From Bacillota bacterium (lineage in GTDB: Bacteria > Bacillota > Negativicutes > CTSoil-072), in contig JAGFZV010000003.1 of assembly GCA_017889545.1 (NCBI GenBank), forward strand, positions 62,001-126,000: a stretch of 64,000 nt of DNA, given 5' to 3'. A program made the translations under genes and the position numbers. How positions within the stretch are numbered: the stretch's first letter is position 1; every line of letters begins with the position of its first letter. Shown here one piece after another: positions 21,980 through 47,915 of this stretch. Under the pieces are notes generated by a model. That model had not been told where the DNA came from, searched no databases, and saw only the letters and a list, made by a program, of their open reading frames with translations.

Positions 21980-22031
21980 GAAACAAAAGACTGCCAGACC
22001 ATAACCGGATTAATCCGGTGCGGCCTGGCAG
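21980..22031 (-). terminator. Expression-platform terminator of tpsB riboswitch
   Basis: CTGCCAG (22031-22025) pairs with CTGGCAG (21997-21991), enclosing an inner CACCGGAT/ATCCGGT stem, and is followed by TCTTTTGTTT. Its 5' arm is part of the conserved 3' strand of the aptamer, so terminator and aptamer cannot form together. Confidence 0.85.
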
Positions 22032-22106
22032 TCATGAGCCCAGTATTTGGGCTTTTAGACCCGCGGCTTTGCGCCCCCGCCTTTTGGCGAGTTTGCCCAT
22101 ACTGTG
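22025..22106 (-). promoter_or_regulatory. c-di-GMP-I (GEMM-I) riboswitch controlling tpsBA
   Basis: Reading the minus strand, GGGCAAAC, a hairpin CTCGC/GCGGG, then GGCGCAAAGCC, GGGTCTAA, a third hairpin (AGCCC/GGGCT) and ATGACTGCCAGG occur in the exact order and spacing of GEMM-I aptamers. The first hairpin loop is CAAAAG rather than the usual GNRA, which may weaken tetraloop docking. Overlap with the terminator predicts an ON switch: ligand-bound aptamer prevents termination and permits tpsBA expression. Confidence 0.93.
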
Positions 22107-22302
22107 TTCTCTACAATCCCAGCAATATTGAATAACTGGTTATTGATTTCGACATTTATCAGTTAATTCCTGCATAAATTCACAAATTATTCAACTATTC
22201 TGATTTTCATGCCGCAAAATTTCAAATAACTTATTCCAGAAGAAATTGTCATATTGACAGATCTATACTTGTCGACATATCCAGCTTGCTTCCGGTTTCG
22301 TT

Positions 22303-40375: not shown

Positions 40376-40422
40376 ACAAAAAACTGCCAGAACACAACCG
40401 GATGTCCGGTGCGGCCTGGCAG
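40376..40422 (-). terminator. Expression-platform terminator of the CoADR riboswitch
   Basis: CTGCCAG (40422-40416) pairs with CTGGCAG (40390-40384), inner stem ACCGGA/TCCGGT, and a run of six T follows. The 5' arm belongs to the aptamer's 3' conserved strand. Confidence 0.92.
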
Positions 40423-40495
40423 TCATGAGCCCGTCTCCGTGGCTTTTAGACCCACGGCTTTGCGCCCTTACCTTTCAGTAAGTTTGCCAATACTG
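40416..40495 (-). promoter_or_regulatory. c-di-GMP-I riboswitch upstream of CoADR gene
   Basis: Minus strand: TTGGCAAAC, hairpin CTTAC-TGAAAG-GTAAG (GAAA tetraloop), GGGCGCAAAGCC, GTGGGTCTAA, a hairpin around AGCCACGGAGACGGGCT, then ATGACTGCCAGG. Same arrangement as the tpsB copy. Overlap with the terminator predicts that c-di-GMP turns the downstream gene on. Confidence 0.93.
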
Positions 40496-40692
40496 TTTTT
40501 AACTAAAGAATATTTCAAACGTTTCAATCATATTATACTCTATTGAAATAGTATTTCCAATGTTTAGATGGATGATTTTGAATTTTGCGATATTTGTTTT
40601 GGGGAAATATGTTATGTATCTACAGAGTGTCCTTCCACTGTAACAATTTTCCAGAAGCGTCACCATGCCTTGTTCCCCAACTCGTTTGGGCA

Positions 40693-43708: not shown

Positions 43709-45070
43709 ATGAAGGATAACAATTCGTTCCTACCTATAGTACAAATGAATATTGTTAAAACGATTAATCAACCCCAAACTCATTTTTTTTACGTGGGGAT
43801 CGATATCGGTTATAAATTTCATGAAGCATCTTGTATTATTGACAAAGCATTTAGTGACATGCAACAAAGTTGGAAAAGAAGCAATACTATTAGATTTAAT
43901 GCAGACGGTGAAGGAATTTCACATTTGCTCCAATTCTTTTCCTCCGCTTCTTCCAATCCGTTGGATTTTTGTATTCTTTTGGAACCAACCGGTGGTTATT
44001 ACGGTTTTGCATTAATAGAGGTTCTAAAACAACAAGGGTACGTTGTGCATTTTGTAGATAACAAGGCTGTGAAAGATTTCCGCGAACGTAATCTTGGCAT
44101 ACGGGAAAAAAGTGATAAAATTGATTGCAAGGTCCTGGCATATATGGGATTTCAAAAGACATTGACTCCTTCAATATATGGCATTAGGTTGATGAACAGC
44201 ACAGCGCCTATGCAAATTCTTTTTAAAGCGCAAGCCGCAGAACGCTGGTCGATGCAAAAACAGTTAACGAGGCGAAAAAACCAACTACAACAAATTCTTT
44301 CTGTTACCCACCCTGACCTTAAAAGTATATTTTCTAACGGAACGGCCACTCGTACAGTACGTAAATTGATAACCAAATATCCAACAATAGAATTGATGTC
44401 TCTTCAATCTGAAGAAACGCTATATAAAGACTTCATTAGTTTTGGAGCAAAATCTATTGCCAAAAAACGAAGCAAAGAGTTAAAAACACTGTTAAGCCAT
44501 GCACTAACTATCGACACATCATTTTTGCTTAACCGACAGCAACTACTTGTTGAGGATATAGATCGTATGGAAGGTTTCATTGAAAAAATGGACGCTGAAA
44601 TAAAAAAGCTTGTAGACAATCACCCATATAAAGAAATACTGTTTTCTTTCCCAGTCATGAGCTATACATGGGCTTGCACGCTAATAGGAGCAATTGGCGA
44701 TATCAATCGTTTTACAAATTATAAACAGTTTAAAAAATACATGGGATTTGTTGCCGAGAATAGACAGTCAGGTATATCAGTTCAAAGCACACATCTTTCT
44801 TTTCAAGGAGTTCGTGAAACCCGTCGGGTTCTGTTTCAGATGTGCTTTACAATGATGGGGCCGCATAATGACGAAACTCCGTTCAGAACACATTACAACC
44901 GCTTGTTGCAAAGAAGTATGCCTAAGATGAAGGCGTTGGGACATGTTTGTGGAAAGTTGGCACAAGTCTTATATGGGTGCCTTAAAAATAACAAACCTTA
45001 TGACCCAACAATTCACTCTCTTGCTATGGGGATTACTGCTGATCGCACTGGTAATACGAACGTGCATTGA
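43709..45070 (+). mobile_element. IS110-family transposase
   Basis: 453 residues with the IS110 architecture. N-terminal DEDD nuclease fold: Asp32 in VGIDIG, Glu92 in LLEPTGG, Asp136 and Asp139 in EKSDKIDCKVLA. A helical linker is followed by a C-terminal Transposase_20 domain with IGAIGDINRFTNYKQFKKYMG and the RQSG serine region. TAGGAG precedes the ATG at about 9 nt. The frame is intact, so the element may be active. No terminal inverted repeats expected for this family. It lies between mobile-DNA debris and the polysaccharide cluster. Confidence 0.93.
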
Positions 45071-45380: not shown

Positions 45381-45857
45381 TCATTGTTTTTTTATTCTTT
45401 GAACTAACCAACATATTCCTATGCCTACTGCCGCTCCGCTTGCATCAATGATCACATCAGAAATTTGTCCGCTTCGACCGGGAACAAAAATCTGATGAAA
45501 CTCATCAGTAACAGAGTACAGCAGACAAAACAAGAACGTAAGAGTATACAGCTTACATTCACTCGTTACTCCCATTTTGGCCGCGGCACAGACCAGCAGT
45601 AGCCCCAGGACAAAATACAAGCCACTATGGGCCAACTTTCTTACCAGGTTATTAAAGTGCTTCACGATACCAGCCAACTTCTCCGCATCTATGTCCGGGG
45701 CAACCACTTTCGCCACGGTTACGACAATCAATTCCGTTACCCGCAGGCTAGATTGATTAGACGTCTCGGCCGGCTGAGCGGATAGGAAAAAGATCAGGAT
45801 GGCCCAGAAGAAAACAAGCATCCATGCCATGATCGTATTTCGGCTCACATTTTTCAT
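45381..45857 (-). CDS. VanZ-family membrane protein
   Basis: 158 residues with four hydrophobic segments and the VanZ signature: FLSAQP, RKLAHSGLYFVLG, DEFHQIFVPGRSGQISD. ATG at 45857 has AGGGTG upstream. VanZ-like proteins often accompany exopolysaccharide genes; function is not settled. Forms the 3' end of the riboswitch-led pair with the sugar transferase (51-bp gap). Confidence 0.9.
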   Translation of the reverse strand: MKNVSRNTIMAWMLVFFWAILIFFLSAQPAETSNQSSLRVTELIVVTVAKVVAPDIDAEKLAGIVKHFNNLVRKLAHSGLYFVLGLLLVCAAAKMGVTSECKLYTLTFLFCLLYSVTDEFHQIFVPGRSGQISDVIIDASGAAVGIGICWLVQRIKKQ

Positions 45858-45908
45858 TTGTGTCACCCTACTATTCTTTCAACAGCTTCATTACGATTGA
45901 CGACACAC

Positions 45909-46484
45909 CTAAGCCCGGTTTTCCGTTTTCACAATGCCGGTACCTTCTGAGACGCTAAACACAGTCATATAAATAATTTTCAAATCCAGCCAGAAAGTTT
46001 GCTTTTTAAGATAGTATAAGTCCAATTTCACTTTTTCCGGCAGAGAAATATCATCCCGCCCGTTTACCTGCGCCCAGCCGCTGAGACCGGGCCGGATGGC
46101 TGCTACTCCCATTTTATTGCGCCTTTGCCGCAATTCCGTTTGGTTGTATAGAGCCGGCCGCGGTCCAATAATCGACATATCGCCTTTAATAATATTCAAT
46201 AATTGCGGTAACTCATCAATGCTGTATTTGCGTAAATAATAACCAACCTTGGTAATATAGCTTTGGCTGTTTGTCAGTTTATCCGTCGCCACATTCGGGG
46301 TGCCGACCACCATCGTGCGGAATTTGTACATGAAAAATTCCGTATCATTGATCCCCACCCGCCTTTGCACAAATAGGCTCGGACCAGGGGAATCCATTTT
46401 TATAAGTATAACCACCACGATCAACAACGGACTTAATACCAGCAGAGCCGCCGATGAGCACAAGATATCAAATAACCTTTTCAA
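45909..46484 (-). CDS. Undecaprenyl-phosphate sugar-1-phosphate transferase (priming)
   Basis: 191 residues of the short bacterial sugar-transferase (WcaJ C-terminal/PglC) class. One N-terminal re-entrant membrane helix (AALLVLSPLLIVVVILIK) is followed by the catalytic pair in KFRTM, DELPQLLNIIKGDMSIIGPRP and GLSGWAQVNGRD. It starts polymer assembly by loading a sugar phosphate on undecaprenyl phosphate. TTG start with AAGGGGG upstream. It is separated from the rest of the cluster by a c-di-GMP riboswitch leader. Confidence 0.93.
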   Translation of the reverse strand: MKRLFDILCSSAALLVLSPLLIVVVILIKMDSPGPSLFVQRRVGINDTEFFMYKFRTMVVGTPNVATDKLTNSQSYITKVGYYLRKYSIDELPQLLNIIKGDMSIIGPRPALYNQTELRQRRNKMGVAAIRPGLSGWAQVNGRDDISLPEKVKLDLYYLKKQTFWLDLKIIYMTVFSVSEGTGIVKTENRA

Positions 46485-46520
46485 CGCCTGATAACCCCCT
46501 TTTTAATAATAATTTATCCC

Positions 46521-46549
46521 AAAATAAAAACCAGGTTATTCACCTGGCA
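46521..46549 (-). terminator. Leader terminator before sugar transferase
   Basis: CCAGGT/ACCTGG, 5-nt loop, followed by TTTTTATTTT on the minus strand. It lies 36 bp upstream of the gene and 40 bp past the aptamer: the expected expression platform. Confidence 0.9.
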
Positions 46550-46554
46550 ACGCA

Positions 46555-46578
46555 TCAACATCAACATCAACATCAACA
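46555..46578. repeat. Hexanucleotide repeat (TCAACA)4 inside riboswitch leader
   Basis: Four exact head-to-tail copies of TCAACA between aptamer and terminator. On the minus strand they read (TGTTGA)n, and in one frame encode alternating Met-Leu. Copy-number change would alter aptamer-terminator spacing. Confidence 0.85.
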
Positions 46579-46587
46579 TAAAGAAGA

Positions 46588-46668
46588 TGTGCAACTTGGC
46601 AGTCATAGGCATAACGCCTTTAGACCCATAGCTTTGCGCCTCTATCTTTCAATAGATTTGCCAAAGAA
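46588..46668 (-). promoter_or_regulatory. c-di-GMP-I riboswitch upstream of sugar transferase-VanZ
   Basis: Minus strand: TTTGGCAAAT, hairpin CTAT-TGAAAG-ATAG (GAAA tetraloop), AGGCGCAAAGC, ATGGGTCTAA, hairpin AGGCGTTATGCCT, then ATGACTGCCAAGTTGC. Third member of the same family in this window. Here the terminator does not overlap the aptamer; TTGCCA of the terminator arm could instead pair with TGGCAA of the aptamer 5' strand, so switching direction may be reversed. Confidence 0.92.
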
Positions 46669-46784
46669 CAATATTAAATTATTGCAAAAACAGAAAACTC
46701 TTGACATTATCTTACTGCCATATTTCTCGAGAGTCAATACAATAGTTCTATTTCTTATTCAAACTGCAAGAGATCTCCTGTCGG

Positions 46785-47915
46785 TCAAAACTTTTTCCAA
46801 ACCATTCTATTTACTATACCAGTATAACTTTGAATAATTTTAACAACCTTCACGCTCACATTTTCGTCTGCATAATCCGGCGTTGTGACCCCAAGATCAC
46901 CATTTGCATGCATAGCAACGGCAAGTTCAACCGCTTGCAACACCTGTTCCGTGGTAATGCTGCCAATAATAAAGTTACCTTTATCAATCGCTTCCGGGCG
47001 TTCAGTGCTTGTTCTCACACATACAGCAGGAAACTTAAAATAGGAAGCCTCTTCAGGAATTGTTCCGCTATCTGATACTACACAAAATGCATTTAACTGC
47101 AAATGATTATAATCTGAAAAACCAAACGGTTTTAAGCTTCTTACCTTCGGATGGAACTTGAACTCTCGTTGTTCAATAAATTTTGCGCTGCGCGGATGAG
47201 TACTATAGATAATCGGCATATCATATTTTTCAGCCATGGCATTGACTGCATGCATTAAAGCAAAAAAATTCTTTTCAATGTCTATATTTTCTTCACGGTG
47301 AGCAGACAGTAAAATATATTTCCCTGTTTGTAAATCCAATTGTTTAAGCACTTGGCTGTTCTTGATCTTGTTAATGTTGGCAGTTAATACTTCTGCCATT
47401 GGGGAACCAGTTACGTAAGTCCGTTCTTTGGCAATACCCTCATAATTTAAATAGCGTCGAGCATGTTCGCTGTAGCATAAATTCACATCAGCGATATGAT
47501 CAACAATTCTACGGTTTGTTTCTTCCGGCAGGTTCTCGTCAAAGCATCGATTGCCAGCCTCCATATGGAAAATTGGTATTTTGAGCCTTTTAGCCGCTAT
47601 TGCTGATAAAGCGGAATTTGTATCTCCTAAGATTAGAAGTGCATCCGGCTTCACTTCCGCAAGGAGGCTATAACTTTTTGCGATAATATTGCCAATTGTT
47701 TCCCCTAAATCTTTTCCAACAGCTTCCAAGTAATAATTGGGTTCCCGTAATCCTAGGTCCTCAAAAAAAATCTGGTTGAGAGTATAATCCCAATTCTGAC
47801 CAGTATGAACCAAAACATGGTCAAAATAAGTATCACATTTTTTAATCACTTCCGACAAACGGATAATCTCCGGCCGTGTGCCAAGAATAGTCATGAGCTT
47901 TAAACGGTTTGCCAT
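46785..47915 (-). CDS. capG: UDP-N-acetyl-L-pneumosamine 2-epimerase (CapG/FnlC)
   Basis: 376 residues of the non-hydrolysing UDP-HexNAc 2-epimerase fold: MTILGTRPEIIRLSEVI, HTGQNWDYTLNQIFF, LGDTNSALSAIAA, HMEAGNRCFD and SDSGTIPEEASYF. The HTGQNWDY...NQIFF form and the capE-capF-capG order point to the last step of UDP-N-acetyl-L-fucosamine synthesis, not WecB. Its ribosome site lies inside the last codons of capF, 2 nt upstream. Confidence 0.9.
   Translation of the reverse strand: MANRLKLMTILGTRPEIIRLSEVIKKCDTYFDHVLVHTGQNWDYTLNQIFFEDLGLREPNYYLEAVGKDLGETIGNIIAKSYSLLAEVKPDALLILGDTNSALSAIAAKRLKIPIFHMEAGNRCFDENLPEETNRRIVDHIADVNLCYSEHARRYLNYEGIAKERTYVTGSPMAEVLTANINKIKNSQVLKQLDLQTGKYILLSAHREENIDIEKNFFALMHAVNAMAEKYDMPIIYSTHPRSAKFIEQREFKFHPKVRSLKPFGFSDYNHLQLNAFCVVSDSGTIPEEASYFKFPAVCVRTSTERPEAIDKGNFIIGSITTEQVLQAVELAVAMHANGDLGVTTPDYADENVSVKVVKIIQSYTGIVNRMVWKKF

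Follow-up and report, generated by a model that had tools for sequence, protein, structure and literature searches.

Three c-di-GMP-I riboswitches are found in the 64,000-nucleotide stretch of DNA analyzed here (the window), and a sequence-only reading had suggested that one of them, copy L011, works with a polarity opposite to that of the other two. The locus thus raises the questions of which way ligand binding pushes its terminator, which strand holds the terminator open when ligand is absent, and what a hexamer repeat in the linker contributes. Our preferred reading, to which we give a probability of roughly 0.58 on the strength of sequence comparison and structure modeling, is that L011 is an OFF switch acting on transcription ahead of the sugar-transferase gene in an exopolysaccharide locus, in which the 5′ strand of the aptamer would act as the antiterminator and the repeat array as a spacer.

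Results

A complete c-di-GMP-I aptamer followed by a separate terminator

On the minus strand, a promoter-like site is followed by the aptamer, a linker carrying the hexamer array, an intrinsic terminator, a ribosome site, a PF02397 gene and a VanZ-like gene (Table 1). The ribosome site (AAAAAGGGGG) lies 10 nt upstream of the TTG start of the sugar-transferase gene, and the VanZ-like gene is the probable second gene of the same transcript. Polysaccharide genes surround the locus (UDP-GlcNAc 2-epimerase, Polysacc_synt_2 and UDP-sugar dehydrogenases). ShlB/FhaC-type outer-membrane genes are also present, and an IS110-family transposase gene is located just past the transferase/VanZ pair (43709-45070, plus strand). 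The outer-membrane genes, together with riboswitches of the terminator type, point to a diderm Firmicute (class Negativicutes) as the probable source.

Table 1. Features of the L011 locus, in window coordinates
Feature	Position	Strand	Remarks
Promoter-like site TTGACT-17-TAAGAT	46709-46737	-	Consensus match only; hexamers and spacing the same in L017
c-di-GMP-I aptamer (copy L011)	46587-46672	-	Rfam RF01051, 72.6 bits, covers model positions 1-87 in full
P strand TTGTTCTTTGGCAA (aptamer 5′ strand), which would pair with the terminator arm to form the antiterminator when ligand is absent	46658-46671	-	Duplex with T strand -12.8 kcal/mol
A strand GACTGCCAAGTTGC (aptamer 3′ strand)	46591-46604	-	Without match to the terminator; in ON copies its counterpart serves as the terminator 5′ arm
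Perfect hexamer array ATGTTG x4.5 (TCAACA x4 on the plus strand), aptamer-terminator linker	46553-46579	-	
T strand TTGCCAGGTGAATA (TT followed by the terminator 5′ arm and loop)	46537-46550	-	Identical in L017
Intrinsic terminator GCCAGGT-GAATA-ACCTGGT with U-tract	46521-46548	-	
Short frame MLMLMLMLMRCQVNNLVFILG* through repeat and terminator	46514-46579	-	
Bacterial sugar transferase (initiating glycosyltransferase type), regulated gene, TTG start	45909-46484	-	PF02397, E 3.1e-62
VanZ-like protein gene	45381-45866	-	PF04892, E 3.5e-23

Judged by its sequence, L011 is a member of the well-known c-di-GMP-I (GEMM-I) riboswitch class and is predicted to bind c-di-GMP. It matches positions 1-87 of RF01051 with a score far above the gathering cut-off (72.6 versus 35 bits), and the equivalents of G20 and C92, which we take to be the ligand contacts known from the Vc2 structure, are a G at 46662 and a C at 46591. 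L011 resembles the family in having a complete aptamer with these canonical residues, a surface-polysaccharide gene downstream and a transcription-terminator platform. The aptamer itself shows no difference from the class; the unusual part is the expression platform.

The terminator is separate from the aptamer, as had been claimed. Its hairpin (CCAGGTGAATAACCTGG) occupies exactly 46531-46547, or 46530-46548 if one extra G-U pair is counted, the U-tract (TTTTTATTTT) occupies 46521-46530, and the hairpin still forms when the aptamer pairs are forced.

The short Met-Leu frame that had been noted on the minus strand does read MLMLMLMLMRCQVNNLVFILG*, and inspection by eye revealed no Shine-Dalgarno sequence before it. 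Since the frame also traverses the terminator, we rejected it as a leader peptide; it is probably an untranslated by-product of the ATGTTG unit. An open reading frame crossing the repeat on the plus strand (46454-46837) was likewise judged to be due to chance, being antisense to the leader and the start of the gene.

Both wirings of the same aptamer occur in one genome

The 3.27 Mb genome carries 25 c-di-GMP-I aptamers (L001-L025). As a measure of polarity we computed a coupling, defined as the free-energy cost of leaving the terminator 3′ arm unpaired with versus without enforced aptamer pairs, for the 22 of these 25 aptamers that have an identifiable terminator arm. Automatic terminator calls were ambiguous for L003 and L010, and these copies are not used as evidence. 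Eleven copies are wired as ON switches in that the aptamer 3′ strand doubles as a terminator arm, and in these the aptamer lowers the cost by 5.1-15.6 kcal/mol. Both other copies in the window belong to this group (L015 at 40407-40498 and L022 at 22016-22107). The remaining 11 of the 22 copies have a separate terminator and couplings between -0.6 and +2.6 kcal/mol. L011, at +2.6 kcal/mol, is coupled weakly in the OFF direction, and similar values were obtained for L017 (+2.2), L004 (+2.5), L005 (+2.6) and L001 (+1.6).

L011 is thus one of many separate-terminator copies in this genome rather than an exception, and these copies are probably mostly OFF switches. The polarity of L011 is probably opposite to that of the other two copies in the window, as had been proposed, in that OFF is the only ligand-dependent direction offered by the modeled secondary structures (+2.6 kcal/mol versus -5.1 to -15.6 kcal/mol for the ON copies). 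Class I copies in C. difficile are also known to act as OFF switches (PMC11477304).

The 25 aptamers control genes for adhesin secretion, polysaccharide and other functions. Six of them lack a G at the position equivalent to G20 of Vc2, with A in L007, L016, L021, L024 and L025 and C in L018. This position guides ligand choice in cGAMP-type relatives, and some of the six may sense a different cyclic dinucleotide. Elsewhere, L013 and L023 are arranged in tandem (contig C23:297003-297447), the first with a separate, OFF-like terminator and the second with ON wiring, and a promoter-like site lies between them. Two-step or band-pass control by this pair is possible.

The terminator arm of L011 matches the aptamer 5′ strand

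The motif TTGCCA (46545-46550) at the terminator arm is exactly complementary to TGGCAA (46658-46663) in the aptamer 5′ strand. This match, which the sequence-only reading had pointed out, is part of a 13-pair duplex that has a single bulge (UUGUUCUUUGGCAA paired to UUGCCAGGUGAAUA) and an energy of -12.8 kcal/mol. Within the T strand, only GCCAGGT sits in the terminator stem, and the leading TT is just upstream. Of 2000 dinucleotide shuffles of the arm, 62 (3%) gave a P:T duplex at least this strong, as did 0.4% of random downstream 17-mers. The complementarity is therefore unusual, though only moderately improbable rather than overwhelming, and conservation of the aptamer 5′ strand accounts for some of it. 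The corresponding A:T duplex with the aptamer 3′ strand reaches only -7.3 kcal/mol, and 82% of shuffles are equally good.

To place this preference in context, we compared 59 separate-terminator riboswitches from the same genome and from genomes of the same class. In most of them the terminator arm is complementary to the aptamer 3′ strand, as in the Cd1 arrangement described below, and the P:T minus A:T contrast of L011 ranks first among the 59. Within this survey a 5′-strand antiterminator would be specific to L011, and the modeled pairing is plausible as well as unusual. No independent example with covariation was found: a pattern scan of 380 same-class genomes returned L011 and L017 as the only real aptamers. 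A scan of GTDB contigs with the loose pattern GGCAAA..CGCAAA..TTGCCAGG gave, among the matches listed, none that was c-di-GMP-I-like after filtering for aptamer motifs.

A paralogous cassette conserves the terminator and diverges in the linker

L017 (contig C31:137090-137174) lies 28.5 kb from L011 in this genome and precedes a CpsB/CapC-like gene. It is a duplicate of the whole promoter-aptamer-terminator cassette, and export and Wzz/kinase-like genes follow the CpsB/CapC-like gene. The two cassettes share their promoter hexamers, the aptamer 5′ half, the T strand and the terminator; GCGTTGCCAGGTGAATA is kept at 17 of 17 positions, and the differences in the terminator 3′ arm (ACCTGGT in L011, GCCTGGC in L017) preserve pairing. 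The linker of L017 has diverged, lacks the hexamer array and is exactly 12 nt, or two hexamers, shorter. This difference is compatible with a past gain or loss of two units, though it is not proof of one. Despite the identical T strand, the A:T duplex in L017 (-16.7 kcal/mol) is stronger than the P:T duplex (-11.3 kcal/mol).

Modeled switching would have to be kinetic

In the mechanism we propose, the terminator 5′ arm and loop, on emerging in the absence of ligand, would pair with the aptamer 5′ strand, and this antiterminator would keep the arm away from its 3′ partner until the polymerase has cleared the U-tract. With c-di-GMP bound, the aptamer 5′ strand would be locked in the ligand pocket, leaving the arm free to form the local hairpin, and transcription would stop. 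In P-A-T-H notation, the terminator of L011 is [TH] and the putative antiterminator [PT]. The hexamer array would be a mostly unstructured spacer whose length sets the time between completion of the aptamer and the decision more than it affects the energetics.

Ensemble folding of the ligand-free RNA before emergence of the terminator 3′ arm gives pair probabilities near 1 for the core of the 5′-strand antiterminator. At full length without ligand, the terminator combined with an alternative P:A pairing is at -40.4 kcal/mol versus -35.8/-36.3 kcal/mol for the antiterminator, and folding favors the terminator at equilibrium in both the ligand-bound and ligand-free states. Because the terminator wins even without ligand, switching by L011 would have to be under kinetic control. 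Refolding from antiterminator to terminator has a computed barrier of 8.4-8.9 kcal/mol, compared with 5.0 kcal/mol when the arm is outside the antiterminator. The alternative P:A pairing forms first, with a computed barrier of ~8 kcal/mol to its displacement. Since this pairing is costly to displace and the terminator is better at full length, leaky or constitutive termination is possible. The earlier proposal that the aptamer 5′ strand serves as the ligand-free antiterminator therefore gains from the duplex energies, the most extreme of the 59, and loses from the full-length folding.

An alternative is an OFF switch that has no dedicated 5′-strand antiterminator. Such a leaky switch would respond because ligand merely stops the aptamer strands from interfering diffusely with the terminator, and the small coupling of L011 is indeed near those of L004, L005 and L001, none of which uses the 5′ strand. 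We consider this explanation unlikely, given that the 5′-strand contrast of L011 is the strongest of the 59 and that, until the 3′ arm emerges, the ensemble consists mainly of the antiterminator.

A mostly constitutive attenuator, with a terminator that prevails every time and an aptamer in decay or only weakly coupled, would fit the equilibrium preference for the terminator in both states. This appears quite unlikely, however, for an aptamer that is intact at 72.6 bits with its ligand contacts kept and whose paralog, L017, keeps the arm and the pairing. Moreover, the experimentally proven Cd1 OFF switch likewise refolds to its terminator after long times (PMC9262584).

The hexamer array is better read as a spacer than as a thermodynamic dial

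Four exact copies of TCAACA do lie between the terminator and the aptamer, within a perfect 27-nt tract of period 6 (46553-46579). The tract has 21 consecutive matches, whereas none of 30 dinucleotide shuffles of the whole window gave more than 11, and only three perfect arrays (period 4-12, at least 20 nt, at least three copies) occur in the 1.28 Mb sampled (39% of the genome). The second is a hexamer array of the AATAGA type (28 nt, 4.7 units; contig C31:126710-126737, or L183:711-738), about 710 bases past the end of the window; a group 1 glycosyltransferase of this polysaccharide locus has its ribosome site directly downstream of the array. The third array, the pentamer ATTCT x4.6 (L275:19831-19853, contig C1:199831-199853), is at the junction of two genes that, judged by their translations, resemble holB and ricT, and overlaps the start region of the second.

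When 1-8 hexamers were placed in the linker in silico, the coupling ranged only from +2.6 to +4.1 kcal/mol and the early antiterminator stayed intact. Repeat number thus barely shifts the balance, and an unstructured spacer or timer is the better reading of the array. The suggestion that slippage could retune the switch fares poorly in this respect, and a large thermodynamic effect of repeat number is unlikely in the model. An effect on timing is possible: each unit adds 6 nt, or ~0.3 s at the 20 nt/s assumed in PMC9262584.

The array could instead be a contingency locus, with slippage altering the linker length and retuning polysaccharide output among cells. Two of the three arrays are hexamers in untranslated leaders of the polysaccharide locus, 18.2 kb apart, and the L017 linker differs by exactly 12 nt. 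The nearness of the two arrays is suggestive only, as the chance of any two of three lying so close is ~0.08; with the small modeled effect of 1-8 repeats, this leaves a contingency locus doubtful. Similarly improbable is the more specific proposal that a slippage-prone array heritably shifts the time window for ligand binding, and with it the c-di-GMP set point for polysaccharide initiation, where the OFF switch has a 5′-strand antiterminator. Literature searches on repeat tracts, slippage and the length of linkers in riboswitches turned up no relevant precedent.

Discussion

The closest known counterpart of L011 is the Cd1 OFF switch of C. difficile (Landgraf et al. 2022, PMC9262584). Common to both are a separate [TH] terminator that can form alongside the folded aptamer and a competing antiterminator predicted, in L011, to be stable only transiently; that of Cd1 refolds to the terminator after long times. 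However, the Cd1 antiterminator pairs T with the aptamer 3′ strand A, whereas T in L011 matches the 5′ strand P and hardly matches A (-12.8 versus -7.3 kcal/mol). Ligand windows of 61 nt (Cd1) and 25 nt (pilM) have been reported, with final occupancy hardly affected by the longer window (PMC9262584). From its coordinates, L011 has ~41 nt between the C92 equivalent and the T strand.

In the pilM GEMM-I ON switch of G. metallireducens (PMC9262584), the aptamer 3′ strand forms the terminator, a wiring common to the copies at 22016-22107 and 40407-40498 and to nine more in this genome. In contrast, L011 carries a terminator 5′ arm of its own, which allows aptamer and terminator to exist together, and its coupling is positive (+2.6 kcal/mol). 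That L011 is an ON switch like the other two window copies is very improbable, even though 11 of the 25 copies are so wired and the L017 aptamer 3′ strand (GCCAGGC) can also pair with the terminator 3′ arm (GCCUGGC), since in L011 the match between the 3′ strand (CCAAG) and the arm (CCUGG) has been lost and avoiding the terminator becomes more costly when the aptamer is forced.

We therefore favor the OFF switch with a 5′-strand antiterminator. L011 and L017 differ mainly in the linker and the aptamer 3′ strand, and a comparison of the two could reveal which strand acts as the antiterminator. Should the repeat prove to vary, the array would constitute a tuning dial on a riboswitch at the level of DNA. 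More broadly, 25 copies of one aptamer with both wirings in a single genome amount to a natural experiment on how polarity is set by the expression platform.
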